From contig NZ_JAJIRO010000001.1 of assembly GCF_025717535.1 (NCBI RefSeq), forward strand, positions 62,001 to 126,000: 64,000 nt of DNA. The letters are read 5' to 3'. Shown in pieces: positions 45,101 to 64,000 of the stretch; the stretch's first letter is position 1, and each line of letters begins with the position of its first letter. The notes under the pieces were generated by a model. The model saw only the letters and a list, made by a program, of their open reading frames with translations, did not search any database and was not told the DNA's origin. This DNA is from Paucibacter sp. Y2R2-4. Lineage in GTDB: Bacteria > Pseudomonadota > Gammaproteobacteria > Burkholderiales > Burkholderiaceae_C. The position numbers and the translations under genes are program-made.

Positions 45101-45410
45101 CGGGGTTGGAGACCGACATCACATGCTCAACCCCGGTGATCTGCGACAGCACTTGCTCCGCCGGCGTCGCCACCATCTGCTCCACATCCCGCACACTGGC
45201 GCCGGGGAAGGGGATCAGCACATTGGCCATGGTCACATTGATCTGCGGCTCTTCTTCACGCGGCGTCACCATCACGGCAAAGACACCCAAGAGCAGCGCC
45301 ACCAGGGCCAGAAGAGGCGTGATCTGCGCGCTTTGGAAGAAGGCGGCAATGCGCCCCGAGATGCCCATCGGGCTGTTCTCACTGCTGCTTTCTGGAGTTG
45401 TCGGCTTCAT
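42141..45410 (-). CDS. RND efflux transporter permease (AcrB superfamily)
   Basis: A 1089-residue inner-membrane proton-driven pump with the 12-helix RND layout and two large periplasmic loops. The proton-relay pair is visible in FSIGILVDDAIVVVENIH. The sequence differs clearly from the classical multidrug pump at 55788-58931: the N-terminus is longer and the porter region reads TPREEEPQINVTMANVLIPF. AGGAG precedes ATG 45410. The adaptor gene ends 15 bases upstream. The substrate is unknown; neighbours (OsmC, DUF2892, rhodanese) point away from a plain drug pump. No outer-membrane factor is adjacent. Confidence 0.93.
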   Translation of the reverse strand: MKPTTPESSSENSPMGISGRIAAFFQSAQITPLLALVALLLGVFAVMVTPREEEPQINVTMANVLIPFPGASVRDVEQMVATPAEQVLSQITGVEHVMSVSNPGMAVITVQFKVGVPRTEALVRLYDTVNANADWLPQGLGVLAPLIKPKGIDDVPILTLTLFSRDTDTGAFDLERVAHSMEIELKRVPGTREVKSLGGPGRAVLVEMDAARMNSVGLTVADLRQALLSANAGMPLGELLQGNRAIALEAGPFLESPRDLEILLVGVRADKPIYLRDVAKIVDGPATPTRYVWHGMGGAVEKSQHFEAPAITISVTKKAGENAIDVANAVMQRVDGLRNTVIPANVEVSETRNYGATANDKAQKLIQKLMFATASVVALVFVALGRREAAIVGAAVILTLTVTLFASWAWGFTLNRVSLFALIFSIGILVDDAIVVVENIHRHQQLFPGKSLAQIIPSAVDEVGGPTILATLTVIAALLPMAFVSGLMGPYMSPIPINASMGMLLSLAIAFVVTPWLARLGMKALPADHGGDPNALHGLSAKLAPLFERVFKPLLDVKRGARNRGILGLVVAGLIGLSLLLPATGLVLLKMLPFDNKSEFQIIVDMPAGTPLEQTAAVLRELGAQLSEVPEVTHYQAYAGTAAPINFNGLVRQYQLRTGSNQGDLQVNLVDKHHRKEQSHAIATRLRPALQEIGRRHGANVKVVEVPPGPPVLSPIVAEIYGPEAEGRQAVARQVRAVFEKAEGLVDVDDSSIAAAPRKLLLIDRSKASLLGVPQQAIVSSLRAGLAGEAVSYLHGGAKYPAAATLVLPASSQGDLNALLSLSVRAANGKLVPIQELVQISDTEREQPVYHKDLLPMNLVVADMAGRLDSPLYGMFGMRSALQQITAPDGARLQEYFISQPQDAYRGYAIKWDGEWQVTYETFRDMGLAYAVGLVLIYLLVVAQFGSYLTPLIIMAPIPLTIIGVMPGHALLGAQYTATSMIGMIALAGIIVRNSILLVDFINLQVRSGMPFERAIVSSAITRAQPIMLTGMAAMMGAFFILDDPIFNGLAISLIFGIFVSTVLTLVVIPTLYYMAYRHRLQALTGKAD

Positions 45411-45424
45411 GCTTGCGGCTCCTC

Positions 45425-46636
45425 TCAGCGCTTGCTGGCCGCGGCTTGCGGATTCAGCACCAACTTTTCACCGGCGTTCAGGCCGCTGAGAATCTCTTGT
45501 TGATCGCCTTGGATCTTGCCGACGCGAACTTGGCGCAGCAGCGGCTGCCCTTTGCCGTCCAGCACATAGACCGCCATCAATTCGGCACGACGCAGCAGCG
45601 CTGACCTGGGCACCAGGAAGGGCGCCGCTGAGGGCTCAAGGGCAGCGCTTGGTTTGCCCGCGAGAGCTGTTGGGGACTTGCTCAGCAAATCACTGGACCA
45701 CAGCACCCGCGCAAACATGCCCGGCACCACGCCGCTGAGTCCTGCAGGCAGGTCCAGTCTCAGCTCTTGGGTCAGCGATGCTGCATCGACGGTGGGCAAG
45801 ATCTGGATTTGGCTCGGCGTGATGTTGCGGCCGGCCGCGCCCAGGCCCGGCAACTCAATGCGGATCTGCCCCTGCGCTGGCTTGCCAGCGCTTTGCTGGA
45901 CCTGCAGCTGACGGCTCAGGCTTTGGCTCAGGTTCTGAGGCAAATGGGTGGTGATGCGCAGCGCGCTCGGATCGTAGATGGTTGCCAAGGCGCGGCCCGG
46001 CATGGCCATGTCTCCAAGGTTGACAGGCACATCGGCCACCACGCCGGCGTAGGGGCTGCGCACAATGCTGAAGCCGCTTTGGGTGCGCGCCACGCCGACC
46101 TGGGCCAGCTGCGCCTGCACCTGCGCTTGGGTGGCCTTGTACTGGGCTTCGGCTTGCTCCAGCGCGGCCTGGCTGATGTAGTTCTGCTTGAAGAGTTGCT
46201 GTTGGCGCTCGAACTCGCGCGCCGCCAAGAGGCCTTGAGCGCGTGCAGCCTGCGCTTGGGCCTCACTGGCTTGGGCGCTTTGTTCGGCTTGACGGGCATC
46301 GATACGCATCAAGACTTGACCGGCATGGACCCGGTCACCCACCTTGACCTCCATGTGCACGATGGCGCCCGCCACTTGTGCTGCGACCACGGTTTGCCGC
46401 TGAGCCTCCACCACGGCGTCGCGGCTGTCTTGCCCTAGCTGTGCTTGTTTGGCTATCAACAAGGTCTTCAACTCAGGCGCCTTCGGGGCGTTAGTGGTTG
46501 GACCGGCCGCGCCGACCTGCGCGCTCAGCAAAATGCCCGCCGCAGTGGCGGTCAAAGCAAAGGCCAGCCAGGCAGGGCTACGCAGCAAGGATGTGGACTT
46601 GAGCGGCTGGGCGGAAGAAGGCGTCAGTGGCTTCAT
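45425..46636 (-). CDS. RND efflux periplasmic adaptor subunit
   Basis: A 403-residue membrane-fusion protein. The N-terminal hydrophobic segment (about 24-43) acts as a signal or anchor. The lipoyl half motifs (AGAIVHMEVKVGDRVHAGQVL and SPYAGVVADVPVNLGDM) flank an Ala/Gln-rich helical hairpin. The C-terminus has beta-barrel and membrane-proximal regions. It is the first gene of the minus-strand cluster and divergent from the rhodanese across a 206-base region with an AT-rich inverted repeat. Confidence 0.9.
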   Translation of the reverse strand: MKPLTPSSAQPLKSTSLLRSPAWLAFALTATAAGILLSAQVGAAGPTTNAPKAPELKTLLIAKQAQLGQDSRDAVVEAQRQTVVAAQVAGAIVHMEVKVGDRVHAGQVLMRIDARQAEQSAQASEAQAQAARAQGLLAAREFERQQQLFKQNYISQAALEQAEAQYKATQAQVQAQLAQVGVARTQSGFSIVRSPYAGVVADVPVNLGDMAMPGRALATIYDPSALRITTHLPQNLSQSLSRQLQVQQSAGKPAQGQIRIELPGLGAAGRNITPSQIQILPTVDAASLTQELRLDLPAGLSGVVPGMFARVLWSSDLLSKSPTALAGKPSAALEPSAAPFLVPRSALLRRAELMAVYVLDGKGQPLLRQVRVGKIQGDQQEILSGLNAGEKLVLNPQAAASKR

Positions 46637-47265: not shown

Positions 47266-47283
47266 CTGAGCGCGGCGAAAATG

Positions 47284-47306
47284 CCGCCGGAGTCATTCAC
47301 CGGCGG
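47284..47306 (+). promoter_or_regulatory. hairpin overlapping the cti ribosome-binding site
   Basis: CCGCCGG (47284-47290) and CCGGCGG (47300-47306) form a perfect 7-bp GC stem with a 9-base loop. The last two bases of the second arm are the first two of the GGAG Shine-Dalgarno (47305-47308) of cti, so the folded RNA would partly hide it. Confidence 0.5.
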
Positions 47307-47313
47307 AGCCCTG

Positions 47314-49743
47314 ATGAGAAGCAAATTCCTGCCTTGGCGCACATGGCTGGCAGCCCTGAGTCTGCTCAGTTTGATGGGCTGCGCGGCCGTCTTGTCCACG
47401 CAAATCGAGCAGCGCCTGGATCAGCAATTTGGGCCGGCCGACCCTGCGAAGTTTGACGCGCCCGCCCAGCCGCTGCTGGCCGGCCAGCGGCAGGTGATGG
47501 ACTATGACCGCCAGATCAAGCCTTTGCTGGACAAGCGTTGTGTGGTTTGCCATGCCTGCTATGACGCCCCTTGCCAGCTCAAGCTCAGCAGCTATGAAGG
47601 CCTGACCCGCGGTGCCAATCCCCGCGACATCTATGCGAACCGGCTGATCGCCGCCAACCCGACGCGCCTGTATCTGGACGCGCAAAGCAATGCCGACTGG
47701 CGCAGCCAGGGCTTCTTTCCGGTCCTGAATGAGCGCGAGTCTTTCCTGGCCGCTAATCGCGAGGCCGGCGTGATGCACCGTTTGTTGACCCTCAAGCAGC
47801 GCGCTCCTCAGAACACCGATGCTTTGCTGTCAGAGAAGGACTTTGACCTCTCCATTGACCGCAAGGCGCAATGCCCTCGCATTGAGCAAATGGATGCTTT
47901 TGAAGCCCAACATCCGCAGTGGGGCATGCCTTTTGGCTTGCCGGCGCTGAGCGAGCCCGAGCACCGCCTGCTCAGCAGCTGGCTCGCTTTTGGCGCACCG
48001 CGCAGCGCACCCAAGCCCTTGCCTGCGTCGGAGCTGGCCCAAATTGAACACTGGGAGCGCTTCCTGAACGCGGACAATTTGAAGTCCCAGCTGATGAGTC
48101 GTTATGTCTATGAACACTGGTTCGTGGGACATTTGTACTTTGATGAGGCCAAGACCGCTGGATCGGGCAATCAGCCTCAGCAGTTCTACCAGCTCGTGCG
48201 CTCGGCCACCCCGCCGGGCCAGGCCATTGCGCCGATTGCGACCCGTCGCCCCTATGACGACCCCGGCGTGGCGCGTGTCTACTACCGACTGCGCCCCCAC
48301 CAAGAAAGCGTCATCAACAAAACCCATCTGCCGCTGGCCTTGAACAGCGCTCGCATGGCGCGCCTGAAACGCTGGTTTTTGGAGCCCAGCTATGCCTTGA
48401 ACGCTTTGCCCAGCTACGAAGTCGCGGTGGCCTCCAACCCCTTTGTCGCCTTCCGGGCTTTGCCAGTCGAGTCGCGCCATCGTTTCTTGCTGGATGAAGC
48501 TCAATTCATCTTTGCGGCCTTTATGAAGGGGCCGGTGTGCCGGGGCCAAGTGGCCTTGAATGTCATCAACGACTATTTCTGGGTCTTCTTCACCCAGCCT
48601 GGCATCGAGGTGCAAAGCCAGGATGAAGATGCTTTGGCGGGCAGTCTGGACGTCCTGCGCATGCCGGCCGAACATGAAAGCACAGCGGGTCTGCTGAGTT
48701 TTCGCGGCTATGCCAAGCTGGAGCAGCAGTATCTGCAGCGCAAGAGCGAGTTCATGAACGCCCGCTTTGGTGCGCAGTCGCCCGTGACCCTGAAGACCTT
48801 GTGGTCGGGGCGTCAGGCCGGCGAGCTGCCTAACCCCAATGCAGCGCTGACGGCTTTCCGCCATTTCGACAGCGCCTCGGTGGTGCAAGGCTTGCATGGC
48901 GAGCGGCCGCAGACCGTGCTGGTGCTGGACTTCGCCTTGTTCGAGCGCATCTACTATCTCTTGGTCAGCGGCTTCGACATCTACGGCAATATTGGTCACC
49001 AACTGGCGACGCGCCTGTATATGGACTTCTTGCGCATGGAGGGCGAGTTCAACTTCTTGGCCCTGCTGCCCAAGGCTTCGCGTCAGGCGGTGCATGACCA
49101 GTGGTACCGCGGCGCCAGCCCTGCGCATATTGAGCAACTGAGCGCCATGCGTGCCTATTTCGATCAAGAGACCGGCCTGCGCTTCAAGACCGATGAACCC
49201 TTGCCCGAGTTGTTTGGCCTCTTGCGCCAGCACTATGCCGGCCTGGATGGCGGCCAGCATCGCATTGACACCGCTTGGCTGCCCGCTGCCAGCAAAGCGC
49301 AATTGCATGAACTTTCAACACTGCAGGGCCGCGCCGCCACCTTGATGCCCGAGGTCAGCTATTTGTGGCTGCAAACCTCGGGCTCAGGGGCTGGCCAGCC
49401 CTTCACCTTGCTGCGCCACAGCGCCCACTTGAATGTGGCCTCGCCCTTTGGCGAGGAAAAAAAACGTGTGCCCGAGGAAGACCGCTTGCAGGTCTTGCAG
49501 GGCTTTGTCGGCGCCTACCCGAATGCCTTGCTGCGGGTGGAGGAGGCGGATCTGAAGCGCTTTGTTGGCGAAGTCAGCCAGCTGAAGTCAGAGTCAGACT
49601 ATGCCGCCTTGATGCAGCGTTATGGTGTGCGCCGTACCGATCCTGGGTTCTGGCCGTACAGCGACCAGCTGCTGGAAAAAACAAGCCAGCGACCCATTTG
49701 GGAGGCTGGCTTGTTTGATTACTCGCGGCTGGAGAACCGCTGA
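47314..49743 (+). CDS. cti: fatty acid cis/trans isomerase (haem protein)
   Basis: An 809-residue periplasmic enzyme converting cis- to trans-unsaturated phospholipid acyl chains, making the membrane more rigid under solvent or heat stress. A lipoprotein-like signal (LSLLSLMGC, Cys23) precedes a c-type haem site CVVCH (residues 76-80). FMKGPVCRGQVALNVINDYF and YYLLVSGFDIYGNIGHQL are family-like blocks. ATG 47314 is chosen over an upstream in-frame ATG (47281) because GGAG lies six bases before it and the signal then starts correctly. It is monocistronic; the next gene is convergent. Confidence 0.92.
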   Translation: MRSKFLPWRTWLAALSLLSLMGCAAVLSTQIEQRLDQQFGPADPAKFDAPAQPLLAGQRQVMDYDRQIKPLLDKRCVVCHACYDAPCQLKLSSYEGLTRGANPRDIYANRLIAANPTRLYLDAQSNADWRSQGFFPVLNERESFLAANREAGVMHRLLTLKQRAPQNTDALLSEKDFDLSIDRKAQCPRIEQMDAFEAQHPQWGMPFGLPALSEPEHRLLSSWLAFGAPRSAPKPLPASELAQIEHWERFLNADNLKSQLMSRYVYEHWFVGHLYFDEAKTAGSGNQPQQFYQLVRSATPPGQAIAPIATRRPYDDPGVARVYYRLRPHQESVINKTHLPLALNSARMARLKRWFLEPSYALNALPSYEVAVASNPFVAFRALPVESRHRFLLDEAQFIFAAFMKGPVCRGQVALNVINDYFWVFFTQPGIEVQSQDEDALAGSLDVLRMPAEHESTAGLLSFRGYAKLEQQYLQRKSEFMNARFGAQSPVTLKTLWSGRQAGELPNPNAALTAFRHFDSASVVQGLHGERPQTVLVLDFALFERIYYLLVSGFDIYGNIGHQLATRLYMDFLRMEGEFNFLALLPKASRQAVHDQWYRGASPAHIEQLSAMRAYFDQETGLRFKTDEPLPELFGLLRQHYAGLDGGQHRIDTAWLPAASKAQLHELSTLQGRAATLMPEVSYLWLQTSGSGAGQPFTLLRHSAHLNVASPFGEEKKRVPEEDRLQVLQGFVGAYPNALLRVEEADLKRFVGEVSQLKSESDYAALMQRYGVRRTDPGFWPYSDQLLEKTSQRPIWEAGLFDYSRLENR

Positions 49744-52260: not shown

Positions 52261-54351
52261 TCAGCCCCCCAACCAATTGCGCAGCGTCGGCCCAGCGCTT
52301 TTGTCTGGATTGAGCGCGCGGCGGCAGGGCTGCTCGGCCGGTTCGGGTTTGCTCAAGAGCCGCTGCGCCAAGATGGACAAGCCGCCGGTGGCCAGTTTCA
52401 GGCCGACCTGGGTGGCTTGCTGGGCGGTCCCGGCGGCGTCCCAGCTGATGTTCGGTTGGTTCAGCGGCCCTTCCAGTTGCACCAAGGCCGATAGATTGGC
52501 CGCGCTCACCCCCAGGCCTTTTTGGGTGCTGGGGCGCATCGACAGGCTGAGGGTTTCCTTGCCCAGGTCAATATGACCCAAGGCCGCCAGATTGAATTGC
52601 TCGGACTCCAAGGCGATGGAACGATCGATATCGGCCCGTCCTTGCTTGAAGGGCAGGCGCATCACGGCGCAGCGAATCGGGTTGTCGCGTCGCTTTTGAT
52701 CGCCCGGCAGCAGCGCTCGCAAAGTGCCGGTCAAGACATCGGTGCCCAGGTGCTTGGCTTGGCCCTGCAAGACGAAGTTGCGTGCATCGAGCAAGACCTG
52801 ACCCTCCAGCGACGAGACCCATTCGCGGGCATCGTCGCCCTTGGCGGCCACATCGATCGCCATGCGCAGGGCGCCACCGCGCAGCGCAGGCGGTGATGCG
52901 CTGCTCAGGTAGGGGGCCAAGTCGTCGACCTTGATGTCTCGGCCATCGAGCTTGAGGCGCCAACTTGGCGGCTTTGCCCCTGTTTGCGCAGCGCCTGCCT
53001 TGGCCGTCTTGCCCGCGTCCAAAGCCGGTAAATCCATGCCCGCCGAAGCCTGCCATTGCCCGCCCGCCATTTGCCACTGCGCGCTCTTCAGGTTCAGGCT
53101 TTGTGTTGCCATCTCCACCTGCGCCAGCAAGCCCTGCATCGGTGGCATTTTCGGCAACTGCAGCGAACGAATGTCCAAAGCCAGATCAAGCTCGAAGGGA
53201 AAGGCCTTGGGCAGGGGCCAGGAGTCGCGGCTGAAGACCGGGCCGCTCACTTGAGTCGTCCGAGCGGACTTCTGTGTGACTTGAGTTTTCGAGCTTTGGC
53301 CTTTCGGCTGGAGCAAAAAGGGCGCCAGGTCCAAGGAATCGGATTTCAGCTTCATCTCCAAACGCAGCGGCTGGCCGCCGCGCTCGAACAGTTCGCCCTC
53401 CATGCTCTGCCCAGCAGCGGCAATCTTGAAGGGTTGCACCGAGAGCAGGGCGCCTTGGCGGCGCACTTGCGCATCGAGTTGCAGGGCTTGGGGCAATTGT
53501 CTGAACAGTTCGGCACGCCGAGGCATCAAGGCTTGCAGCGCTTGGCTGTCGCTGAGAGCGGCCTTCAGCTCGACATTGAAATCCCCGGCATGCACGCCCA
53601 GGGCCAATTGGCCCTTGCTGCTCAAGTTCAAACCTTCTAGCTGCAGCTTCAGATCAAATGGCCAGAACTCGCTCTCGGCCCTGAAGGCCGCCAAGCCACC
53701 AAAACTGCCGTCGATGCGCAGAGGCTGTTCGGCCAAGCTCAACCGAGCTTGCAGCGCATAGTCAGCCTGCTGTGCATGCAAATTCAGTTCATCGATGTGC
53801 AGCAGCAAGTCTCGCGGCATGCGGGGGCTGTGCAGGGTGATTTTGGAGTCCGCCCATTGAATATGGGCCAGGCTGAAATCACCCGGCTTGCCCTGTGGCT
53901 TGGGCTTGCTTTTGGAATCAAGGCTAGCGCCTGACTGGCTCGGACTGAAGGCCCAGTTGCCGCGCCCTTGCTCATCGACTTCCAGCCAAATGTCGGCGCC
54001 CTCGATCAAAATGCGTTGCACCTCGATGCGCCCGTCCAGCAAGGGCTCAAGCGCCAACTCCAGCGCCGCCTTTCTGATGCTGAGCATTTCAGGCCGGCTG
54101 CCCCAATCGAGATTGGCCAGATGCAGGTCTTCCACCACCACCGCAATATTGGGCAGCAGCCGCCAGCTGATGGGGCCGCGGATCGCGAACTCACGGCCGG
54201 TCTTGGCTTGCACCTGCTCGGCCACCATGGCCAGCAGACGCTCGGGCGGATAAGCCCGTTTCAGCGCAAGAAAGCCCAGCAGCGCAATCAGGACGAGGGC
54301 GGCCAGCAGCCCCAAGGCCCAGCGCAGCTTGGATCGCCCTTGCTTGTGCAT
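52261..54351 (-). CDS. AsmA family protein
   Basis: A 696-residue protein with one N-terminal membrane helix (LGLLAALVLIALLGFLALK, about 13-31), then an AsmA domain (FAIRGPISWRLLPNIAVVVE) and long repetitive beta-strand regions consistent with the bridge-like lipid-transport or envelope-assembly family. The C-terminal block with SALVQLEGPLNQPNISWD is typical. It starts at the base before the stop codon of the outer-membrane factor gene, which suggests it belongs to the RND operon. The role in that operon is unknown. Confidence 0.88.
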   Translation of the reverse strand: MHKQGRSKLRWALGLLAALVLIALLGFLALKRAYPPERLLAMVAEQVQAKTGREFAIRGPISWRLLPNIAVVVEDLHLANLDWGSRPEMLSIRKAALELALEPLLDGRIEVQRILIEGADIWLEVDEQGRGNWAFSPSQSGASLDSKSKPKPQGKPGDFSLAHIQWADSKITLHSPRMPRDLLLHIDELNLHAQQADYALQARLSLAEQPLRIDGSFGGLAAFRAESEFWPFDLKLQLEGLNLSSKGQLALGVHAGDFNVELKAALSDSQALQALMPRRAELFRQLPQALQLDAQVRRQGALLSVQPFKIAAAGQSMEGELFERGGQPLRLEMKLKSDSLDLAPFLLQPKGQSSKTQVTQKSARTTQVSGPVFSRDSWPLPKAFPFELDLALDIRSLQLPKMPPMQGLLAQVEMATQSLNLKSAQWQMAGGQWQASAGMDLPALDAGKTAKAGAAQTGAKPPSWRLKLDGRDIKVDDLAPYLSSASPPALRGGALRMAIDVAAKGDDAREWVSSLEGQVLLDARNFVLQGQAKHLGTDVLTGTLRALLPGDQKRRDNPIRCAVMRLPFKQGRADIDRSIALESEQFNLAALGHIDLGKETLSLSMRPSTQKGLGVSAANLSALVQLEGPLNQPNISWDAAGTAQQATQVGLKLATGGLSILAQRLLSKPEPAEQPCRRALNPDKSAGPTLRNWLGG

Positions 54352-55791
54352 TCAGCTCTGCGGCGTCCAGCCCCCGCCCAAGGCGCGATACAACGCAATC
54401 ACCGAGGCATAAGTGCCGCTGGTCAACTGGGTCAGCTGCATTTGCGCGTCAAAGAGCTGACGCTGCGAGTCCAAGACCTCGAAGTAACTCGAAATCCCAT
54501 TGGCATAGCGCAGGTCCACCAGGCGCAGCCGTTCGCGACTTTCGTTGACGATGGTTTGCGTGGCATTGCGTTGCTCGCGCAGGTGCTGAAAGCGCAGCAG
54601 CGCGTCTTCGACCTCGCGCAGTGCGATCTGCGTGGTGCGGGCGTAGTTCTCCACGGCGATGCTTTGCTGCGCTTCGGCGGCGGCCAGATTGCTGCTCAGG
54701 CGCCCGCCGGTGAACAAGGGCAGGTTGATGGCCGGCGTGACGGTGTAGGCGCTGCGGTCGCCGTCCACCAAGCTGCTCAGCTGCGGGCTGATGAAGCCCA
54801 GAAAGCCAGTCAATGAAATGCTGGGCAGATGGGCTTTGCGAGCCGCGGCGACGCTGGACTGGCTGGCCGCCAAGCTCAGTTCGGCGGCGCGCACATCGGG
54901 CCGGCGACTCAGCAGGTCCGAGGGGATGCCGGCCGGCAAAGTCTCTGGCAGCGCATATTGGCTCAGCGGCGTGCTGGCGTGCAAGGGGCCGGGGTTGCGG
55001 CCGATCAGCAGGCACAGCGCATTTTCTTGCAGGCCGCGGTTTTGCTGCATCAAGGCCAGCGCCGCCTCGGCTTGGGCCAAGGAGGTGGCGGCCTGGGTCA
55101 CATCCACTTTGGAGACCACGCCGGCATTGAAACGCAGCCGCACAATGCGCAGCGATTCGGCGCGCGAGCTCTGGGTGCTTTTGGCGATCTCGATGGACTG
55201 ATCAAACTCCAAGAGCTTGAGCCAGCCCGCCGCGATCTCGGAGACCAAACCCACCTGGGCAAAGCGCTGCAGCGCTTCGCTGGATTCGAGATTGCGCAGC
55301 GCTGCATCATTCAAAGAGCCCAGCCGCCCCCACAAATCAATCTCCCAGGCCGGCATGGCCAAGCCCAGGCGATAGCTGGAAGAGACCAGGTTCTCCGTGC
55401 TGCTGAGCCCACTGGGCGCGCGTTGCCGGCTTGCGCTGGCGTCAGCGCCCAGGCTGGGCAGAGACGCGGACTTCTGCAGGCCGTACTGGGCACGCGCCAG
55501 TTCCACTCTTTGCGCGGCAATGCGAATGTCTGGGCTGTTGCGCAGCGCTTCTTGAATCAAGGCTTCCAGTTCGGCGTCGCGAAACAGGCTGGCGAAGGGG
55601 CGCTCGGCCAGATTGCTTTGCGTGTTGGCCGGGCTCTTCCAGCCCTGCGGCAAGCTCAGCGGCCTATCGGCCTGAGGCCCATCGACTGCGCGTTCTGGCG
55701 TACTGCTGCAAGCGCTCAGCAGCAGGGCGCTGGCCAAGAAGGCCAGGGTCATGGGTGCCGATGTGCTGAGCGAAGGGCGAAGGCGTTTCAT
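54352..55791 (-). CDS. outer-membrane efflux lipoprotein (NodT/OprM family)
   Basis: A 479-residue TolC-like channel. The signal peptide ends in a lipobox (LLLSACSS), so it is anchored by lipid in the outer membrane. The two repeated OEP domains show LIQEALRNSPDIRIAAQRVE and GLAMPAWEIDLWGRL, then RRPDVRAAELSLAASQSSV and INLPLFTGGRL. ATG 55791 is used because it overlaps the RND pump stop (55788-55791). The frame is open 27 codons upstream inside the pump gene. Confidence 0.94.
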   Translation of the reverse strand: MKRLRPSLSTSAPMTLAFLASALLLSACSSTPERAVDGPQADRPLSLPQGWKSPANTQSNLAERPFASLFRDAELEALIQEALRNSPDIRIAAQRVELARAQYGLQKSASLPSLGADASASRQRAPSGLSSTENLVSSSYRLGLAMPAWEIDLWGRLGSLNDAALRNLESSEALQRFAQVGLVSEIAAGWLKLLEFDQSIEIAKSTQSSRAESLRIVRLRFNAGVVSKVDVTQAATSLAQAEAALALMQQNRGLQENALCLLIGRNPGPLHASTPLSQYALPETLPAGIPSDLLSRRPDVRAAELSLAASQSSVAAARKAHLPSISLTGFLGFISPQLSSLVDGDRSAYTVTPAINLPLFTGGRLSSNLAAAEAQQSIAVENYARTTQIALREVEDALLRFQHLREQRNATQTIVNESRERLRLVDLRYANGISSYFEVLDSQRQLFDAQMQLTQLTSGTYASVIALYRALGGGWTPQS

Positions 55792-58700
55792 GAGTGCACC
55801 TCCTCGGTCTTGTTGCTGGGCTTTGCTGCGTCTGGCACTGCCTCTGTCGGTTTGGGTTTGCCGCCGAAGCAACTCATCATGGCCACATAGAACAGCGGCG
55901 TGAAAAACACGCCTACCAAGGTGGCAGCCAACATGCCGCCCAAGATGCCGGTGCCCACCGAATGCTGGGTGGCGGCACCCGCGCCGGTGGCCTTCACCAG
56001 CGGCAAGACGCCCAAGATAAAGGCCAGCGAGGTCATCACAATCGGGCGCAGGCGCTGGCGCCCCGCTTCAACGGCGGCCTCGACAAAGCCCTTGCCGGAC
56101 TCGTACTGCTGCTTGGCGAACTCAACGATCAGAATGCCGTTCTTGCCCGCCAAGCCCACCAAGGTGATCAAGCTGACTTGGAAGAACACATCGTTTGGTG
56201 ACTGTCGGAAGAGCAGGGCGATCAAGGCGCCCAGAATCGCAATGGGCACGATCAGGAACACCGCCACCGGCAGCGTCCAGCTCTCGTAGAGCGCCGCCAG
56301 GAAGAGGAACACGAACACCAAAGACAGCGCAAAGATGCCGGCCGATTGCGAGCCTGCCGAGCGCTCTTGCAAAGACTGGCCCGACCACTCAAAGCTGGTG
56401 CCCTCGGGCAGCGTGGTGGCGGAGATTTCTTCCATGGCCTGCAGCGCCTCGCCGGAACTGCGGCCAGGCGCCGGCCCGCCGTTGAGTTGCACCGAGGGGT
56501 AGCCGTTGTAGCGGGTCAAGGCGATGGGGGCCGAGCGCCATTCGGTGCGCATCAAGGCCGCCAAGGGCACCAAGTCGCCATTGCTGTTGCGGATCTGGAA
56601 GCGCTCCAAAGCGGCAGGGTCGGATCGGAAGCTTTGCTCCGCCTGCATCTTGACCTTGAGATTGGTACCAAAGGCCGTGAATTGATTGACGAAGGACGAG
56701 CCCATCAGGGTGCCCACGGTGGCATAGAGGTCAGGCACCGAGACGCCCAAGGCCTTGGCCTTGTTGCGGTCCACATCGAGGAAGAGGGTCTGCACCTCGG
56801 GCGCGGCCACGCTGCGGGCGCCGAGCAAGCGCTCGTCCTTGGCGGCCGCGCCGGCAATCGCCAGCGTGGCGGCATTGAGCTTGGCTCGGTCGCCATCCAA
56901 AGACAGCAGCCGGTAGTCAAAGCCGGCCACATTGCCCATGCCCGAGATCGGCGGTTCGTTCAGCGCGAACACTCGAGCCTCGGTGATGCTGGCGAACTTT
57001 TGATTGAGTCGCTTGATCAGGCCGGCCACGCGGGTTTCCGGCGTGTTGCGCTCTTCCCAAGGTTTGAGGGTGGTGAAGACAAAAGCCTGATTGGCGTAGC
57101 GATAAAAGATCGAGAAACCCAGAATGGCGGTGCTGTCTTTGATGGCCTCTTCGCTGGCCAAAATGGCTTCGGCTTTCTTCAAGGCTTCGCGGGTGCGTTC
57201 CGGCGAGGCGCCGGCCGGCAAGTCCACCGCCACATAGATGGTGCCTTTGTCCTCCTCGGGCACAAAGCCGCCCGGAATCGCGCCGAACAAATACACCACG
57301 CCAGCGATCAAACCGCCATAGACCGCCCAGGAGATTAGCTTGCGCCCCAGCAGCATTTTGACGCCAGCGACATAGCCACCGGTGACACGTTCAAAGAAAC
57401 GGTCAAAGGCCTGAATCGGTTTGAGCTTCTTCATGCCCGGCTTGAGGATCAATGCGCACAGGGCCGGCGTTAGCGTCAAGGCGGTGATGGCCGAGAGCAG
57501 GGTGGCGAAGGTGATGGTGATGGCGAACTGCTTGTACAAGGTGCCGGTCACGCCGCCCAAGAAGGCGATCGGCACAAAGACCGCACAGATCACCGCCGTC
57601 ACGCCCACGATGGCGCCGCCAATGCCCTGCATGGCCTTGATGGCCGCACTGGTGGCGTCCAGGTGCTCGTCGTGCATGATCTTCTCGACGGCCTCCACCA
57701 CCACGATGGCGTCGTCCACAACGATGCCAATTGCCAGCACCAGGCCGAAGAGCGTCAGCATATTGATCGAGAAGCCCGCCAGCAGCAGGCCGGCCATGGT
57801 GCCCACAATCGAGACCGGAATCGCCAGCAAGGGGATGATGGTGGCGCGCATGCTGCCCAGGAAGAGATAGACCACCACCAAAACCAGAATGAAGGCTTCG
57901 ATGAAGGTGTGCTTGACCAATTCCACCGAGGCGGTAACGAACTTGGTGGTGTCGTAGCTGATCGACCATTTGATCTCGCGCGGGAAGGCCAGGGTCAGCT
58001 GGTCCATGCGGGTCTTCAAGGCCTTGGCTAACTCCAGCGCATTGCCGCCAGGGCGCAGATAGACACCAATCGCCACCGCCGGCTTGCCGTTCAGGCGCGA
58101 CTCAAACTGATAGTCATCGGCGCCCAGTTCCACCCGCGCCACATCGCGCACCCGCACCACCGAGCCATCCGGCAGGGCGCGGATCACGATGTTCTTGAAC
58201 TGCTCCACCTCGGTCAGGCCGCCGGCAGTCTGCACCGGGAAGGTCAAGCTTTGGCCGTTATCGGCCGGGGACTGGCCGATCTCGCCGACCGCAAAATTCT
58301 GGTTTTGCTCGCGCACCGCATTGCCCACATCCGAGGCAGTAAGGCGGTATTTGGCGAGGCGGTCCGGGTCCAGCCACAAGCGCATCGCATAGGGCGCAGC
58401 GAACAGGGTCACATCGCCAGCGCCAGGCAGGCGTTTCAGTTCATTGACCACCTGGCTATTGGCCAGATTGGCAATATAGGTGCGGTCAAAGCGCGGGTCT
58501 TCCGACTGCAACACCAGAACCTGCAAGATCTGCGGATTGGTCTTGTCCACCCGCAAGCCATTGCGCAGCACCTCTTGCGGCAGCAGCGACTCCACCCGCT
58601 TGGCGCGGTTGTTGACTTCCACCGCCGCCAAGTCCAGATCGGTGCCGGGCTGGAAGAAGACTTGCAACTGCATCAGGCCGCTGGCCGAGCTGGTGCTCTG

Positions 58701-58931
58701 CATATAGAGCAGACCGGCGATGCCGTTCATCTCGCGCTCCAGTGGCGCGGCCACGGTCGTCTCCAGCGTTTCGGGGCTGGCACCGGGGTAGGTGGCGGTG
58801 ATCTGCACCTGGGGCGGCGCCACGTTGGGATACTGCTCCACCGCCAGCTGGCTGCTGGCGAGGATACCGATCAACATGAAGAGCAGGGCGATGACGGTCG
58901 CCATCACCGGGCGTTTGACAAAGAATCCCAT
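55788..58931 (-). CDS. RND multidrug efflux pump (AcrB/MexB type, HAE1)
   Basis: A 1047-residue trimeric drug/proton antiporter. The N-terminus FFVKRPVMATVIALLFMLIG and the porter motif GASPETLETTVAAPLE are canonical. The proton-relay Asp pair is in LVLAIGIVVDDAIVVVEAVE, and YKQFAITITFATLLSAITAL follows. The pump starts 15 bases after the adaptor stop and overlaps the outer-membrane factor by four bases, giving a complete tripartite operon. No TetR- or MarR-type regulator is adjacent. Confidence 0.97.
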   Translation of the reverse strand: MGFFVKRPVMATVIALLFMLIGILASSQLAVEQYPNVAPPQVQITATYPGASPETLETTVAAPLEREMNGIAGLLYMQSTSSASGLMQLQVFFQPGTDLDLAAVEVNNRAKRVESLLPQEVLRNGLRVDKTNPQILQVLVLQSEDPRFDRTYIANLANSQVVNELKRLPGAGDVTLFAAPYAMRLWLDPDRLAKYRLTASDVGNAVREQNQNFAVGEIGQSPADNGQSLTFPVQTAGGLTEVEQFKNIVIRALPDGSVVRVRDVARVELGADDYQFESRLNGKPAVAIGVYLRPGGNALELAKALKTRMDQLTLAFPREIKWSISYDTTKFVTASVELVKHTFIEAFILVLVVVYLFLGSMRATIIPLLAIPVSIVGTMAGLLLAGFSINMLTLFGLVLAIGIVVDDAIVVVEAVEKIMHDEHLDATSAAIKAMQGIGGAIVGVTAVICAVFVPIAFLGGVTGTLYKQFAITITFATLLSAITALTLTPALCALILKPGMKKLKPIQAFDRFFERVTGGYVAGVKMLLGRKLISWAVYGGLIAGVVYLFGAIPGGFVPEEDKGTIYVAVDLPAGASPERTREALKKAEAILASEEAIKDSTAILGFSIFYRYANQAFVFTTLKPWEERNTPETRVAGLIKRLNQKFASITEARVFALNEPPISGMGNVAGFDYRLLSLDGDRAKLNAATLAIAGAAAKDERLLGARSVAAPEVQTLFLDVDRNKAKALGVSVPDLYATVGTLMGSSFVNQFTAFGTNLKVKMQAEQSFRSDPAALERFQIRNSNGDLVPLAALMRTEWRSAPIALTRYNGYPSVQLNGGPAPGRSSGEALQAMEEISATTLPEGTSFEWSGQSLQERSAGSQSAGIFALSLVFVFLFLAALYESWTLPVAVFLIVPIAILGALIALLFRQSPNDVFFQVSLITLVGLAGKNGILIVEFAKQQYESGKGFVEAAVEAGRQRLRPIVMTSLAFILGVLPLVKATGAGAATQHSVGTGILGGMLAATLVGVFFTPLFYVAMMSCFGGKPKPTEAVPDAAKPSNKTEEVHS

Positions 58932-58946
58932 GGTCGGGCCCTCAGG

Positions 58947-60194
58947 TCAGCGGCTGGCGCCAGAGGACGGGAGAGCAGCCGCAGCGGCCGGCGATCCCGC
59001 CGCGCCGCCCGCACCCGGCGTCCAGGGCGAGGGGCTCACCACCGCGCCTTGCTGCAAGCGCTGCAAGCCCTCCACCACGACCTTTTCGCCGGCGCCGAGG
59101 CCTTTCTCGATGATCCAGTCACTCTTCAGCCATTCGCCCACCACCAGGTCACGACGTTCGACCTTGTTCTCAGGCCCGACCACCCAGGCGATATGGCCGG
59201 TAGGCGTCTTGGTGACGGCTTTTTGTGGAATGAGGATGGTGTCTGGCCTTGCGCCTGCGGTGTAGACCACGCGCACATACATGCCCGGCAAGAGCTTTTG
59301 CGCCGGATTGGGCATCACCACCCGCAAGGTGATGGTGCCCGTGCTGGGGTTGACCTGAGATTCAGAAAAGTCCAGCCGGCCGCTGCGTTCAAACTCGCTG
59401 CCGTCCGGCAGGAAGAGCCGCGCCTGCGCGCTGCCGGTGCCTTCGCCAGTCTTGACTCGACCGGCGCTGAGTTCGCGCCGCAGAATCAAGGCGTCACGAT
59501 CGGCCACATTGAAGTTCACATAAACCTGATCCAAGCGGTCCACCGTGGTCAGATGGGTGGATTCGCCGCGGCCGACCAAGCGCCCCTCGGGCACCAGCGC
59601 GGCGCCGATCTTGCCGGACTCGGTCGCCGTCACCCGGGTATAGCCCAGGTTGGTTTGAGCCCGCTCCACATTGGCGTTAGACACGGCCAACAAGGCTTCG
59701 GTCTGTTTGACCGCCGTGACCGCATCGTCATAGTCCTGCTGGCTGATGGCGTTCTCTTTCACCAGCGGTGCCAGGCGGCGCTCTTTGGAACGGGCGCTGG
59801 CCAAGTTGGCGGCACTGCGGGCCTGATCGGCCTGGGCATCGTTCAAGGCAATGCGATAGGGCGTTGGGTCAATGGTGTAGAGCAAATCGCCCTTTTTGAC
59901 CTCAGCGCCCTCGACAAAATGGCGGCGCTCCAGAATGCCCTCGACCCGGGCCCGCACTTCCACCGAGCGATAGGCGGCTACCCGACCAACGTACTCGTTA
60001 TTCACCGGCACTGTCTCTGAGCGAGAGGCCACGACCTTGACCGGAGCCGGAGGCAAGGCTTTCGGGGCCACGGCCTCTTTCTTCTGGCAGGCACTCAGGC
60101 CCAAAACCAGGGTGAGCAGGGTGAGCAGGGGGATCAGGATCCGGCCCCCCATTGCTCGTTTGGACACCCGGGACAAAGGCTGCGGCTGAGGCAT
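58947..60194 (-). CDS. RND efflux periplasmic adaptor (AcrA/MexA type)
   Basis: A 415-residue lipoprotein adaptor. Its lipobox is LGLSAC, followed by the lipoyl halves (VEVRARVEGILERRHFVEG and GYTRVTATESGKIGAALVPE), a helical hairpin and beta-barrel. The C-terminus is Ala/Pro/Ser-rich. The frame opens at 60266; ATG 60194 gives a better signal peptide, and a TATAGT element on this strand (60277-60282) would leave too little leader for the upstream start. It is the first gene of the efflux operon. Confidence 0.93.
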   Translation of the reverse strand: MPQPQPLSRVSKRAMGGRILIPLLTLLTLVLGLSACQKKEAVAPKALPPAPVKVVASRSETVPVNNEYVGRVAAYRSVEVRARVEGILERRHFVEGAEVKKGDLLYTIDPTPYRIALNDAQADQARSAANLASARSKERRLAPLVKENAISQQDYDDAVTAVKQTEALLAVSNANVERAQTNLGYTRVTATESGKIGAALVPEGRLVGRGESTHLTTVDRLDQVYVNFNVADRDALILRRELSAGRVKTGEGTGSAQARLFLPDGSEFERSGRLDFSESQVNPSTGTITLRVVMPNPAQKLLPGMYVRVVYTAGARPDTILIPQKAVTKTPTGHIAWVVGPENKVERRDLVVGEWLKSDWIIEKGLGAGEKVVVEGLQRLQQGAVVSPSPWTPGAGGAAGSPAAAAALPSSGASR

Positions 60195-60502
60195 GGTGCT
60201 GATTCCGTCAAGAGTTGGCTGGACCTGAACCGTCATGCCGCTGGCGCTAGAGCTTTTGATCAGCATGACTGGCGCACTATAACGGGCGAATTTGGCAGAA
60301 AGATGTGCGCTGAGGCCCGTGGATTTCCCCTAGGTTCTTCCGTCCAAACGGCCCGTTACTCAGCCTCTGTTGGTGTCGAAATGAGATGCTTTGGCGGCAG
60401 GGCCCGCAGCCTGAGTTGAGGTCGAAATCAGCGATAAAGTACAGGCGCTGACAAGCCTTGACCCTTGAGGCTTTTGCGGCCGGAATGGATTCGCCTGTAC
60501 CA
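60195..60502. other. divergent intergenic region between efflux operon and envelope-protein gene
   Basis: About 300 bases with no supported gene. On the minus strand TATAGT (60277-60282) could be the -10 of the efflux operon, but no good -35 is present. No strong palindrome for a TetR-like repressor was seen. Open frames here are short or antisense to the neighbouring genes. Confidence 0.4.
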
Positions 60503-62050
60503 ATGAAGCTTTTTTTCATGCTGCGCGTTTTGACATTGAGCCTCTTGGCCGGCATGAGCTTGGGCCTGCCCCACGCGGCCAGTTGGGCTAGTGCGGGCAG
60601 TGCGTCCAGTGCTGGCGAAGCACCAATCCAGAATCGGGTGCTGACGGGGCGGGTGCTGTTGCCGCCTGCTGCGCTTTTACCCAAGCAAGCGGTCTTGACC
60701 GTTCGAGTTGAAGACGTCAGCTTGGCCGATGCGCCTGCACGATTGATGGCTGAGTTCAAGCGAGACTTGACGGGCTCCGATCCGAAGTTGGACTTCAAGA
60801 TCACAGTGGCGCAGGCTGATATTGCTCCTCACCGCCGCTATTCGCTGCGCGCGACGATCCATGAAGCAGCGGCTTTGCGCTTCACCAGCACTCAGTTCCA
60901 TCCTGTGTTTGCAACTGATGGCCCAGGTAGTGCCACGCTGAATGGCCAGCGCCTGGAGATTCCCCTCGAGGCTGTGGGTCCAGTGACTACGCCGCTCCCC
61001 CATGCGCCTCAGCCGGGTTCAGTGTTTGGATCCGAAATGCCCAGCAGTTTTTCGGGGGTCTTGCCCTGCGCCGATTGCGAAGGCATTCAGCACCGCCTGA
61101 CCCTGCGCGATGACGGAAGCTATCGTCTGCGTTTGGACTACTTGGGCAAGCCGGGCCGCCTGTTTACGGAGTGGGGCCGGTGGTCTGTGCAGCCCAAGCA
61201 AGGGCTGATGCCTGGACGCTTGCTCTTGCAAGGGGCTCGCCAAGAGGCCAGGCATTTTGTGCTGGTGCCGGGCACTCAAAAGACTCCAGCGCGTCTGCGT
61301 CAACTGGATCGCCAGGGCCGGCACTTCTCGTCTTCCGCAAATCTGGACCTGCATCCAGTCGCAGCACAAGACGAAGGCCAGGAGCCGCTGCGCTTGCGCG
61401 GTGAGTTTCGCTATATGGCCGATGCCGCCAACTTCACCGATTGCGCCAGCGGCTTGCGCTGGCCCGTGCAAATGGGCGGTGACTATTTGGCGCTGGAGCG
61501 TCGCTATGGTGAGTTGCGGAGTTCGCCCGGTGCCGGCATCTGGGTTGAGTTGAAGGGCCGTGTGGCCCTGTCGCCCAGCATGGAAGGGCCGCCGCGTGAG
61601 CATGTCTTGGTGGATCAGTTCATTGCCGCCGATGGCGCGGCTTCTTGCGCCGCCCCGGCGCAGACGCTGGCGCCCGAAGCGCGGCCGCCGCTGGCCCAGT
61701 TACTCAATACTTATTGGAAGCTGATCGAGATTGAGGGCCAGCCCTTGCTGGGCACGGCTGTTCAGGCCTTGGGCGATGTGAGCCTGAGCTTGAGCGAACA
61801 AGAGGCGAGGGCTCGACTCAAATCTGTTTGCGGCAATGCAGTCGGGGCCTATCAATTGAATGGCAATACGCTGAAATTCAGCGCTATGGCGGGTACCATC
61901 AGCACATGCCCCGAGCCTGCCAAGGCCCTCGTTCTAAAACTGATTCAGGCTTTGAACGTGAGCCAGACTTACCGCATTGAGGGCGAGCAATTGCTGTTGA
62001 TGGGCGGCGACCAAAACTTGGCTCGCTTTGAATCTGTTTACCTGCGTTGA
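60503..62050 (+). CDS. composite exported envelope protein: YbaY-like + NlpE (N and C) + META/HslJ domains
   Basis: A 515-residue protein with a signal peptide (MLRVLTLSLLAGMSLGLPHA) and no lipobox cysteine. The YbaY-like domain (about 43-160) includes LTVRVEDVSLADAPA and YSLRATI. NlpE N-domain: FSGVLPCADCEGIQHRLTL, with a CxxC at 189-192. NlpE C-terminal OB domain: FRYMADAANFTDCASGLRWP (about 302-321). META/HslJ domain (about 400-515): LLNTYWKLIEIEGQPLLG and YRIEGEQLLLMGG. E. coli NlpE is an outer-membrane lipoprotein that triggers the Cpx response; here it appears soluble. Start at ATG 60503 is preferred over TTG 60458 and ATG 60485; no clear Shine-Dalgarno. Confidence 0.82.
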   Translation: MKLFFMLRVLTLSLLAGMSLGLPHAASWASAGSASSAGEAPIQNRVLTGRVLLPPAALLPKQAVLTVRVEDVSLADAPARLMAEFKRDLTGSDPKLDFKITVAQADIAPHRRYSLRATIHEAAALRFTSTQFHPVFATDGPGSATLNGQRLEIPLEAVGPVTTPLPHAPQPGSVFGSEMPSSFSGVLPCADCEGIQHRLTLRDDGSYRLRLDYLGKPGRLFTEWGRWSVQPKQGLMPGRLLLQGARQEARHFVLVPGTQKTPARLRQLDRQGRHFSSSANLDLHPVAAQDEGQEPLRLRGEFRYMADAANFTDCASGLRWPVQMGGDYLALERRYGELRSSPGAGIWVELKGRVALSPSMEGPPREHVLVDQFIAADGAASCAAPAQTLAPEARPPLAQLLNTYWKLIEIEGQPLLGTAVQALGDVSLSLSEQEARARLKSVCGNAVGAYQLNGNTLKFSAMAGTISTCPEPAKALVLKLIQALNVSQTYRIEGEQLLLMGGDQNLARFESVYLR

Positions 62051-62083
62051 TTTTGTTTTTTACTGTTTAGGGATGGATCTCCG

Positions 62084-62755
62084 ATGAATCGTTTTTCTGC
62101 TCTCGCCTTGGCCTGTACCTTGGCCTTCACTGCCAGCCTGCCTTTGTCGGCCCAAGCCCAAGGCGTGACCACCAATACCGTCAGTGCCAAGACCGATGGT
62201 GCCCGCATGAAGGGTGCGGAGATCGAGTACCGCGCCCGTGTGGTGGAGCTGGATGCGGGCAATCGCCTGCTGACACTGCGCGGCCCCAAGGGTCGCTTGA
62301 GCACGGTCAAGGTGCCGGCCGAGATGCAGAACTTTGAGAAGGTTCGCGTCGGTGACGATCTGGTGATCCGTTATGCCACCGCCATCGCAGCGGCCATGGA
62401 GCCCACCAGCAAGAGCGGTATTCGTGAACGGGTGGAGTCTTCCTCCGAAGGTCGTGTTGAGTCTGGCGGCATGCCAGCCGTGGCCGCCGGTCACACGGTG
62501 GAAGTGCTTGCCGTCATCACCGCCTTGGACCCAAAGGCGAACACCGCCACTTTGCGCGGCGTGAAACGCACCGAGACTTTGGCCGTGCCCGCGAATGTGG
62601 ACATCAACAAACTCAAGGTGGGCGACGAAGTCCGCCTGGCCATGGTGGAAGCGATGGCCATCAGCATCGAGCATGCGCCAGCTGCCAAAGCTGCCGCCAG
62701 CAAGCCCGCTGCGCCCAAGGCCGCCAAGCCTGCAGCCTCGGCCGCGTCGAAATAA
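62084..62755 (+). CDS. exported protein with two internally repeated domains, function unknown
   Basis: A 223-residue protein with a signal peptide cleaved after about residue 26 (PLSAQAQG). Two units resemble each other: about 50-104 (VVELDAGNRLLTLRGPKG ... VRVGDDLVIRYATAIA) and about 140-195 (ITALDPKANTATLRGVKR ... LKVGDEVRLAMVEAMAIS). Each looks like a small beta-barrel. An Ala/Lys/Pro-rich tail ends the protein. I do not recognise a named family with confidence. It is 33 bases after the composite envelope gene and 46 before a DUF4136 lipoprotein gene, so the three are probably co-expressed. Confidence 0.8.
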   Translation: MNRFSALALACTLAFTASLPLSAQAQGVTTNTVSAKTDGARMKGAEIEYRARVVELDAGNRLLTLRGPKGRLSTVKVPAEMQNFEKVRVGDDLVIRYATAIAAAMEPTSKSGIRERVESSSEGRVESGGMPAVAAGHTVEVLAVITALDPKANTATLRGVKRTETLAVPANVDINKLKVGDEVRLAMVEAMAISIEHAPAAKAAASKPAAPKAAKPAASAASK

Positions 62756-62801
62756 GACGTGTGGCCCAGCGTTTTTGCATTTCTAGATTGAGGAGCTCGC
62801 C

Positions 62802-63422
62802 ATGGCATTGAATTTTTTGACCAGCCGACGCAAGACAGTCCTTAGCTTCAGCGTGGCCGCTTTGGTCGTCTTGCTGAGTGCTTGCGCGAGCGGCCCACAG
62901 GTGCGGGTCAGCATGGACAAGTCGGCCGAGTTCAGCCAATACCAGACCTTTGCCTTTGCTGACCCCTTGGGCACCGACCGAGGCGGCTACCAAAGCATCG
63001 TCAGCCAGCACCTGAAAGACGCGACCAAGCAAGAGTTGGAGGCTCGCGGCCTGCGTTATGTGGCGAGCTCACCGCAACTGCTGGTGAACTTCAGCGCTTC
63101 TTTGAACGAGAAGATGCGCGTCATGTCGACGCCAGCGCCGATGTTGGGCATGGGCTATTACGGCTATCGCGCTGGCATGTACACCGCCTGGCCGCTGTAT
63201 GCCGAGCAACAGACGGTGACGCAGTACACCGAGGGCACTTTGAACATCGATGTGGTTGACGCCGCACGCAAGCAACTGGTGTGGGAGGGTGTGGTCACGG
63301 ACAGCGTCACGCAAAAAGAGCTGGATCAACTCAAGACCAGCATCGATATTGCGGTGAAGGCCGCTTTTGCCAAGTACCCGGTGGCTTTGCCTGCCGCAGC
63401 GACTGCGCCGAAGTCGCCCTGA
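62802..63422 (+). CDS. DUF4136 lipoprotein
   Basis: A 206-residue lipoprotein with lipobox LLSACAS (Cys at about 28). The mature part matches DUF4136: FSQYQTFAFADPLG, LEARGLRYVASSPQLLVNFS, TEGTLNIDVVDAARKQLVWEG and IDIAVKAAFAKYP. A Tyr/Gly/Met-rich middle segment (GMGYYGYRAGMYTAWPLY) is typical. Function is unknown, envelope-associated. GAGGAG lies seven bases before the ATG. Confidence 0.88.
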   Translation: MALNFLTSRRKTVLSFSVAALVVLLSACASGPQVRVSMDKSAEFSQYQTFAFADPLGTDRGGYQSIVSQHLKDATKQELEARGLRYVASSPQLLVNFSASLNEKMRVMSTPAPMLGMGYYGYRAGMYTAWPLYAEQQTVTQYTEGTLNIDVVDAARKQLVWEGVVTDSVTQKELDQLKTSIDIAVKAAFAKYPVALPAAATAPKSP

Positions 63423-63465
63423 GCCAAGGGACAGTACAGGGGCGAGGATGGACCGTTAGGTCCAA

Positions 63466-63500
63466 AGAAAAACGGCTGCAAGATGCAGCCGTTTTTTCGT
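63466..63500. terminator. bidirectional rho-independent terminator
   Basis: AAAAACGGCTGCA (63468-63480) pairs with TGCAGCCGTTTTT (63484-63496) around a 3-base loop, with A/T runs on both sides. It sits between the convergent DUF4136 and ABC-exporter genes and should stop both transcripts. Confidence 0.9.
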
Positions 63501-63525
63501 CTTGCTGAGAACTATTGGCTGCCCT

Positions 63526-64000
63526 TCAAGCTGCGAATTGCAGCGCCGCCAGACGCGCATAAAGGCCGCCGCGCGCACTCAACTCGGCGTGCGTGCCGAC
63601 CTCGACAATGCGGCCCTGCTCCATCACCACAATGCGGTCGGCACGTTGCACCGTCGCCAAGCGGTGCGCAATCACCAGCGTGGTGCGGTGCTGCATCGCG
63701 GCCTCAAGTGCGGCTTGGACCATGCGTTCGCTTTCGGCGTCGAGCGCGCTGGTGGCTTCATCCAGCAGCAGCAGTGGTGGGTTTTTCAACATCGCCCGCG
63801 CAATGCTGATGCGCTGCCGCTGGCCGCCAGACAAGCGCACGCCACGTTCACCCAAAAAGCTGGCATAGCCTTCGGGCAGGCGCAGGATGAACTCGTCAGC
63901 AAACGCGGCCTTGGCGGCGGCGATGACCTCGGCATCTGTGGCCTCGGGGCGGCCATAACGGATGTTTTCCATGGCGCTGGTCGAGAAGATCACGCTGTCT
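63526..64000 (-). CDS. ABC exporter, C-terminal ATPase part (MsbA-like; 5' end beyond window)
   Basis: The last 157 codons of a half-transporter. The Q-loop region ([20 protein letters not shown]), signature [16 protein letters not shown], Walker [17 protein letters not shown] and His-switch VIAHRLATV are visible. The Walker A and membrane domain lie outside. The pattern fits lipid or multidrug exporters of the MsbA/BmrA type; an exact substrate cannot be given. The frame is open to the window edge. Confidence 0.9.

Follow-up and report, generated by a model that had tools for sequence, protein, structure and literature searches.

In E. coli, the domains considered here are spread over three separate proteins. 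One of these, NlpE/CutF, is classed as a type I NlpE in PMC6737893. According to PMC6593411, E. coli NlpE requires both CpxA and an acylated +1 cysteine to sense trafficking and copper, and disruption of its C-terminal disulfide activates the Cpx response (work of Delhaye et al. cited there); PMC6538781 is a further source on its mode of action. In Pseudomonas aeruginosa, a Cpx system is present and an obvious NlpE homolog is absent according to PMC12802237. For HslJ, a likeness to MxiM and a hydrophobic cavity in the META/HslJ/MxiM fold are described in PMC3270026. The pilotin AspS is a stand-alone lipoprotein, and pilotins carry secretins by the Lol route, for which the lipid is needed; the same source proposes that PA3611, which has a link to the AspS pilotins but is not lipidated, stabilises secretins in the periplasm (PMC3542185).

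We analysed a gene of Paucibacter sp. Y2R2-4 whose product (hereafter the composite) joins these domains in one chain; the window is the whole 64,000-nucleotide stretch of DNA examined around it. The composite shares with E. coli NlpE (2z4h) both domains in the same order, the CxxC motif and the C-terminal cysteine pair, but lacks the lipid-bearing cysteine and has a YscW and a META domain added, and the CpxA sensor domain went undetected in its genome, which is thus the mirror image of P. aeruginosa: NlpE domains with no CpxA sensor domain detected. With E. coli HslJ it shares PF03724, the HslJ fold and both aligned cysteines, whereas HslJ stands alone and carries a lipoprotein annotation, and the META domain of the composite is the C-terminal module of a longer chain. 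Similarly, it shares PF09619 and the fold of 5wec with the YbaY/YscW/AspS pilotins; AspS is a protein in its own right and an outer-membrane lipoprotein, while the YscW domain of the composite is an unlipidated N-terminal module. Bacteroidetes proteins such as those of L022 and L062 also carry NlpE_N followed by META in one chain but, unlike the composite, gave no YscW or NlpE_C match with the window-domain queries. No such fusion was described in the titles and abstract openings of the open-licence PMC articles listed, although domain databases or subscription papers may already list the architecture.

The gene codes for a four-domain composite

A sequence-only reading of this DNA had proposed a YbaY-like region, an NlpE domain, an NlpE C-terminal domain and a META domain, in that order, behind a signal peptide devoid of a lipobox cysteine. 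Searched against Pfam-A, the 515-aa open reading frame matched all four domains, each above its own gathering threshold and in the proposed order (Table 1), the first under the Pfam name YscW, confirming that the gene codes for a real four-domain composite that is predicted to be exported. The placement of the NlpE CxxC at residues 189-192 also proved exact, and the lack of an anchor was borne out, the first cysteine being residue 189. Against PDB sequences, phmmer retrieved E. coli NlpE (2z4h, E 5.3e-20), 5wec (E 9.4e-9), titled as an alternative pilotin of the Vibrio cholerae type II secretion system, and 3lhn, a putative Shewanella lipoprotein. The NCBIfam NlpE equivalog matched the composite with an E-value of 2.5e-33, its score of 115.4 bits lying below the cut-off of 243. 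Genome-wide profile searches returned the composite as the sole match to PF09619, PF04170 and PF17185. A second place with META matches was found at G000:C3:107199-107825 (L174, L175), where two adjacent PF03724 matches share a single 279-aa open frame.

Table 1. Features of the composite gene and its neighbours (positions in the window).
Feature	Position	Strand	Basis and remarks
Four-domain composite gene	60503..62050	+	515 aa, no internal stop; Pfam and translation; an in-frame ATG at 60485 is another possible start
Predicted cysteine-free Sec signal peptide, approximately residues 1-31, with a cleavage-like ASA	60503..60595	+	Sequence and model helix 2-17 rather than a signal-peptide predictor; cleavage site inferred
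YscW/YbaY domain, residues 46-140, pilotin-like fold	60638..60922	+	PF09619, E 1.5e-16; 61.1 bits, cut-off 22.6
NlpE N-terminal domain, residues 183-277	61049..61333	+	PF04170, E 1.5e-17; 64.6 bits, cut-off 22
CxxC motif, C189-C192	61067..61078	+	Alignment with E. coli NlpE CxxC
NlpE C-terminal OB domain, residues 294-382, C314 and C382	61382..61648	+	PF17185, E 1.9e-20; 73.4 bits, cut-off 22; E. coli NlpE alignment
META/HslJ domain, residues 398-509, C443 and C469	61694..62029	+	PF03724, E 2.1e-15; 57.1 bits, cut-off 24; HslJ alignment and fold
Exported protein, two similar halves, weak CusF/DUF1344 similarity; 33 bases downstream of the composite	62084..62755	+	Sub-threshold CusF match, 18.1 bits, cut-off 27
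DUF4136 protein, lipobox-like LSAC signal sequence; 46 bases further on	62802..63422	+	PF13590, E 2.3e-38
Divergent RND efflux operon: MFP 58947-60266, RND 55788-58931, OMF 54352-55872	54352..60266	-	Pfam

Cysteines of the composite

The composite contains exactly six cysteines, at residues 189, 192, 314, 382, 443 and 469. None precedes residue 189, either in the protein or in its in-frame extension up to position 60458, and since no choice of in-frame start would place a cysteine close to the N terminus, the composite cannot be lipidated. In an alignment of seven chosen rows including E. coli K-12 NlpE, C189 and C192 fall on its CxxC and C314 and C382 on its two C-terminal cysteines (the phmmer alignment alone ended short of the second of these), while its fifth, lipid-bearing cysteine has no counterpart in the composite. 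C443 and C469 align with the cysteines of HslJ other than the one at its lipobox-like signal end. All six are invariant across the six four-domain members of the genus, of which the other five are 37-40% identical to the window protein. We infer that the three pairs are disulfides, the formation of which is plausible given the six DSBA-family matches in the genome.

Distribution of the architecture and loss of modules

Half of the genus genomes (9/18) match the composite at E <= 1e-5 and the other nine have no match. Pfam analysis of the nine loci found all four domains in G000 (the window's genome), G002, G004, G005, G007 and G014, and shortened proteins at the same locus in G001 and G009 (YbaY+NlpE_N) and in G013 (YbaY+META); the YscW module alone is kept in all nine.

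The survey of fusion variants was extended to the family, order and class, where the fusion recurs together with shortened forms. In the family, 41 of the 299 genomes match the composite, mostly over part of the protein, and 25 new loci (L094-L118) were scanned using the window protein's own domains. NlpE_C was found in 17/399 order genomes and 9/369 class genomes, the window's genome and G144 being part of both draws. Among the 23 loci L141-L163, an NlpE_C profile built in this study found an open reading frame in 18 (not in L156 or L160-L163): four code for four domains (G696, G490, G316 and G421, confirmed by Pfam), seven for NlpE_N+NlpE_C+META, three for NlpE_C+META, two for NlpE_N+NlpE_C and one for NlpE_C alone, and the remaining one, from G478, for YbaY+NlpE_N with a short NlpE_C that ends at an unread base. 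Pfam also detected four domains in G167 and in L004, a Methyloprofundus metagenome-assembled genome (MAG). The two best named matches in a scan of contigs (best 80 of 88 relatives) were a beta-proteobacterial MAG and a Sulfuritalea MAG.

Altogether, Pfam confirmed the four-domain order in 12 proteins, six in the genus and six beyond. A frameshift or misassembly joining separate genes, which the sequence-only reading had named among the findings that would undo its proposal, was thereby rejected, as was a recent chance fusion in a single strain.

The CxxC motif is absent from the four-domain relatives G696, G490, G316, G167 and L004; G478 has a C-x-x-C visible in its sequence. We also took 26 selected proteins, several of them with uncertain start sites, and looked for lipobox motifs within residues 1-90 using simple patterns rather than signal-peptide prediction. 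The strict pattern occurred in 3/26 (G002, G287 and G478), the lax one in 11/26 including those three, and neither in 15/26; for the 12 four-domain proteins, the strict pattern occurred in one (G002) and the lax one in five (G002, G014, G696, G316 and L004). By these patterns, the four-domain protein of G002 may be lipidated. G131, G287 and G156 code for YbaY+NlpE_C+META proteins with lipobox-like N termini, and since these three and L004 look like lipoproteins, the soluble state would not be essential to the wider family. Sequence comparison thus places the composite in an architecture that is established yet subject to module loss, with an anchor that varies among relatives. The G478 gene (L154, 1492-2736, minus strand) codes for a lipobox-like LAAC followed by about 110 extra residues ahead of the YbaY domain.

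Predicted structure

AlphaFold2 modelled the composite from a 22-sequence alignment with a mean pLDDT of 74.1 and a pTM of 0.39; the single domains appear reasonable, and a pTM of this value gives no reliable domain arrangement. The fold comparison re-examined Foldseek candidates and was not a search in itself. Residues 43-160 matched the V. cholerae pilotin 5wec, which we take to be AspS (Z 14.6, rmsd 2.5, 112 aligned residues), and the P. aeruginosa type III secretion system (T3SS) secretin pilot 2yjl (Z 11.1, rmsd 2.5, 103 aligned). Residues 173-288 matched 3lhn (Z 12.3), and residues 178-385 matched E. coli NlpE with a Z of 12.6 and an rmsd of 19.2, so that this match holds domain by domain only. 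For residues 394-515, HslJ (2kts, Z 12.7) was tied with a DUF4847 protein (4zgf, Z 13.5), followed by 1y9l, titled a secretion system protein and presumably Shigella MxiM (Z 10.9), and the Shigella T3SS pilotin 2jw1 (Z 10.5). The fold list also contained the DUF4847 protein 4l3r (Z 12.2) and, lower down, lipocalins, ToxS and adhesin or complement repeats. Because these folds are common ones, they show no function by themselves; as modelled, they would fit a binding or chaperone role at least as well as sensing.

Gene neighbourhood

Both genes behind the composite look exported, as had been proposed from the sequence, and the gaps of 33 and 46 bases suggest a single transcript, the composite probably being co-transcribed with the two genes. 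Among the eight other genus loci, the CusF-like gene follows the composite in seven (not in G009), the DUF4136 gene is present in seven (not in G001), an ABC transporter gene lies nearby in all eight, and the RND operon is divergent to the composite in five (not in G002, G005 and G014). G003 and G008, which have no composite match, carry a relative of the CusF-like gene. Scanned at the gathering threshold over 54000-64000, Rfam returned no RNA family; between 60100 and 63600 we counted 0 promoter-like sites (0.5 expected) and 2 terminator-like sites (4.1 expected in shuffles).

The two halves of the CusF-like protein align with a score of 71, which 0/2000 shuffles reached (maximum 55); BLASTP returned no significant match. 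A second CusF-like copy, 54% identical, lies at G000:C3:421625-422242, the aligned stretch crossing one stop codon. Near the first RND operon are a second RND-type transporter with its fusion protein (42141-46636, minus strand) and a fatty acid cis/trans isomerase gene (47281-49743, plus strand).

The flanking genes most similar to those of the window are found in G013, for which dN is 0.02-0.09 for five neighbours versus 0.44 for the composite, and dS 0.6-1.0 versus 1.8, the latter near saturation. Relative to L126 (G013), the diverged block spans about 60120-62175. It takes in the composite together with the DNA upstream of it and the beginning of the gene that follows, and on either side the DNA is roughly 75-92% identical in stretches of 60 bases; the NlpE modules are absent in G013. 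This pattern would fit a diverged allele having taken the place of the block, or else rapid evolution.

Candidate functions

The sequence-only reading had also cast the protein as a modified NlpE-type sensor of surface or metal stress. This claim fared poorly: the acylated +1 cysteine is absent, and the periplasmic domain of CpxA (PF16527) was found in 0/26 genomes, the window's own included, and was found in the E. coli control. The search took in 26 chosen genomes carrying the composite or a relative, a set drawn without, for example, G409, G669, G693, G656, G611 and most class-level genomes, and the PF16527 model may miss a very diverged CpxA. Since neither a lipid anchor nor a CpxA sensor domain was detected, CpxA-mediated sensing of lipoprotein trafficking is unlikely here, and disulfide-based signalling would be possible only with a receptor other than CpxA.

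We tentatively prefer to view the composite as a soluble, disulfide-stabilised periplasmic quality-control protein that binds clients or lipids, a reading that is possible rather than probable. The protein would be exported by Sec without lipidation, consist of four small domains folded as beta barrels or beta sandwiches, and stay soluble in the periplasm, where DsbA-type oxidoreductases may close its three cysteine pairs. YscW with its pilotin-like fold, NlpE_N with its lipocalin-like one and the cracked barrel of META might then bind lipids or the hydrophobic stretches of envelope proteins; the composite would in this way act in client-binding quality control and not as a Lol-dependent trafficking alarm. 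We counted in favour of this proposal the domains and folds, the hydrophobic cavity described for the META/HslJ/MxiM fold, the invariant cysteines and the DSBA-family matches, the recurrence in 12 proteins, the position of the composite as its genome's sole YscW, NlpE and NlpE_C match, and the conserved neighbourhood, and against it the loss of domains in G001, G009 and G013, the lack of a match in 9/18 genus genomes, the lipoprotein-like relatives and the pTM of 0.39. The absence of both lipid and CpxA, together with the precedent of PA3611, led us to favour it over a redox sentinel, a secretin chaperone or an accessory of a pump or of metal handling. A complete NlpE sensor placed between two pilotin-like folds and freed from Lol and CpxA could even serve as a one-chain sentinel that binds clients and either buffers envelope proteins that have misfolded or signals their presence to another receptor, a picture that we regard as rather unlikely.

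The C314/C382 pair could instead report failures of oxidative folding to an inner-membrane receptor other than CpxA, making the composite a soluble redox sentinel. Both NlpE_C cysteines align with the E. coli pair, whose disulfide activates Cpx when broken (Delhaye et al., cited in PMC6593411), and are invariant in the genus alignment. However, no receptor was found: CpxA_peri was found in none of the 26 genomes searched and no kinase was present among the 13 neighbour proteins scanned. NlpE_C is itself missing in G001, G009 and G013, and we hold this explanation to be unlikely.

A soluble pilotin-type chaperone for a secretin, for instance one belonging to type II or type IV pilus machinery, would account for the pilotin matches at both ends of the chain (5wec and 2yjl for the first domain, 1y9l and 2jw1 for the last) and has a precedent in the non-lipidated pilotin relative described in PMC3542185. 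The Lol route by which pilotins carry secretins nevertheless needs a lipid (same source), and no secretin was found among the 13 neighbour proteins scanned, leaving this role improbable in our view.

We give comparably little credence to a role as an accessory of the divergent RND efflux pump or as a metal-binding partner of the CusF-like neighbour. Counting the window, the divergent operon occurs in 6/9 genus loci and the CusF-like gene adjoins the composite in 8/9; yet the composite is complete in G002, G005 and G014, where no such RND operon was found within stretches of 15-16 kb, the CusF match is below its cut-off, and the four-domain relatives listed above lack the CxxC.

That the composite is a Cpx sensor of the classical NlpE lipoprotein type is scarcely credible: both NlpE domains score above cut-off and the NCBIfam NlpE model matches, but that match falls well short of the model's cut-off, there is no lipobox cysteine, and CpxA_peri was found in 0/26 genomes; a diverged CpxA missed by the Pfam model could revive part of this reading.

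In E. coli, NlpE needs its lipid and CpxA for its part in trafficking (PMC6593411). Relatives that retain the NlpE disulfide cysteines, with no lipid anchor and no CpxA sensor domain detected, could show what NlpE domains do alone. The forms that occur naturally at a single locus (four domains, YbaY+NlpE_N or YbaY+META) offer ready-made tests of which module matters. Besides its YbaY+NlpE_N gene, G001 codes elsewhere for another protein that resembles a lipoprotein and matches NlpE_N in its first part (L127, 4405-5568, plus strand).
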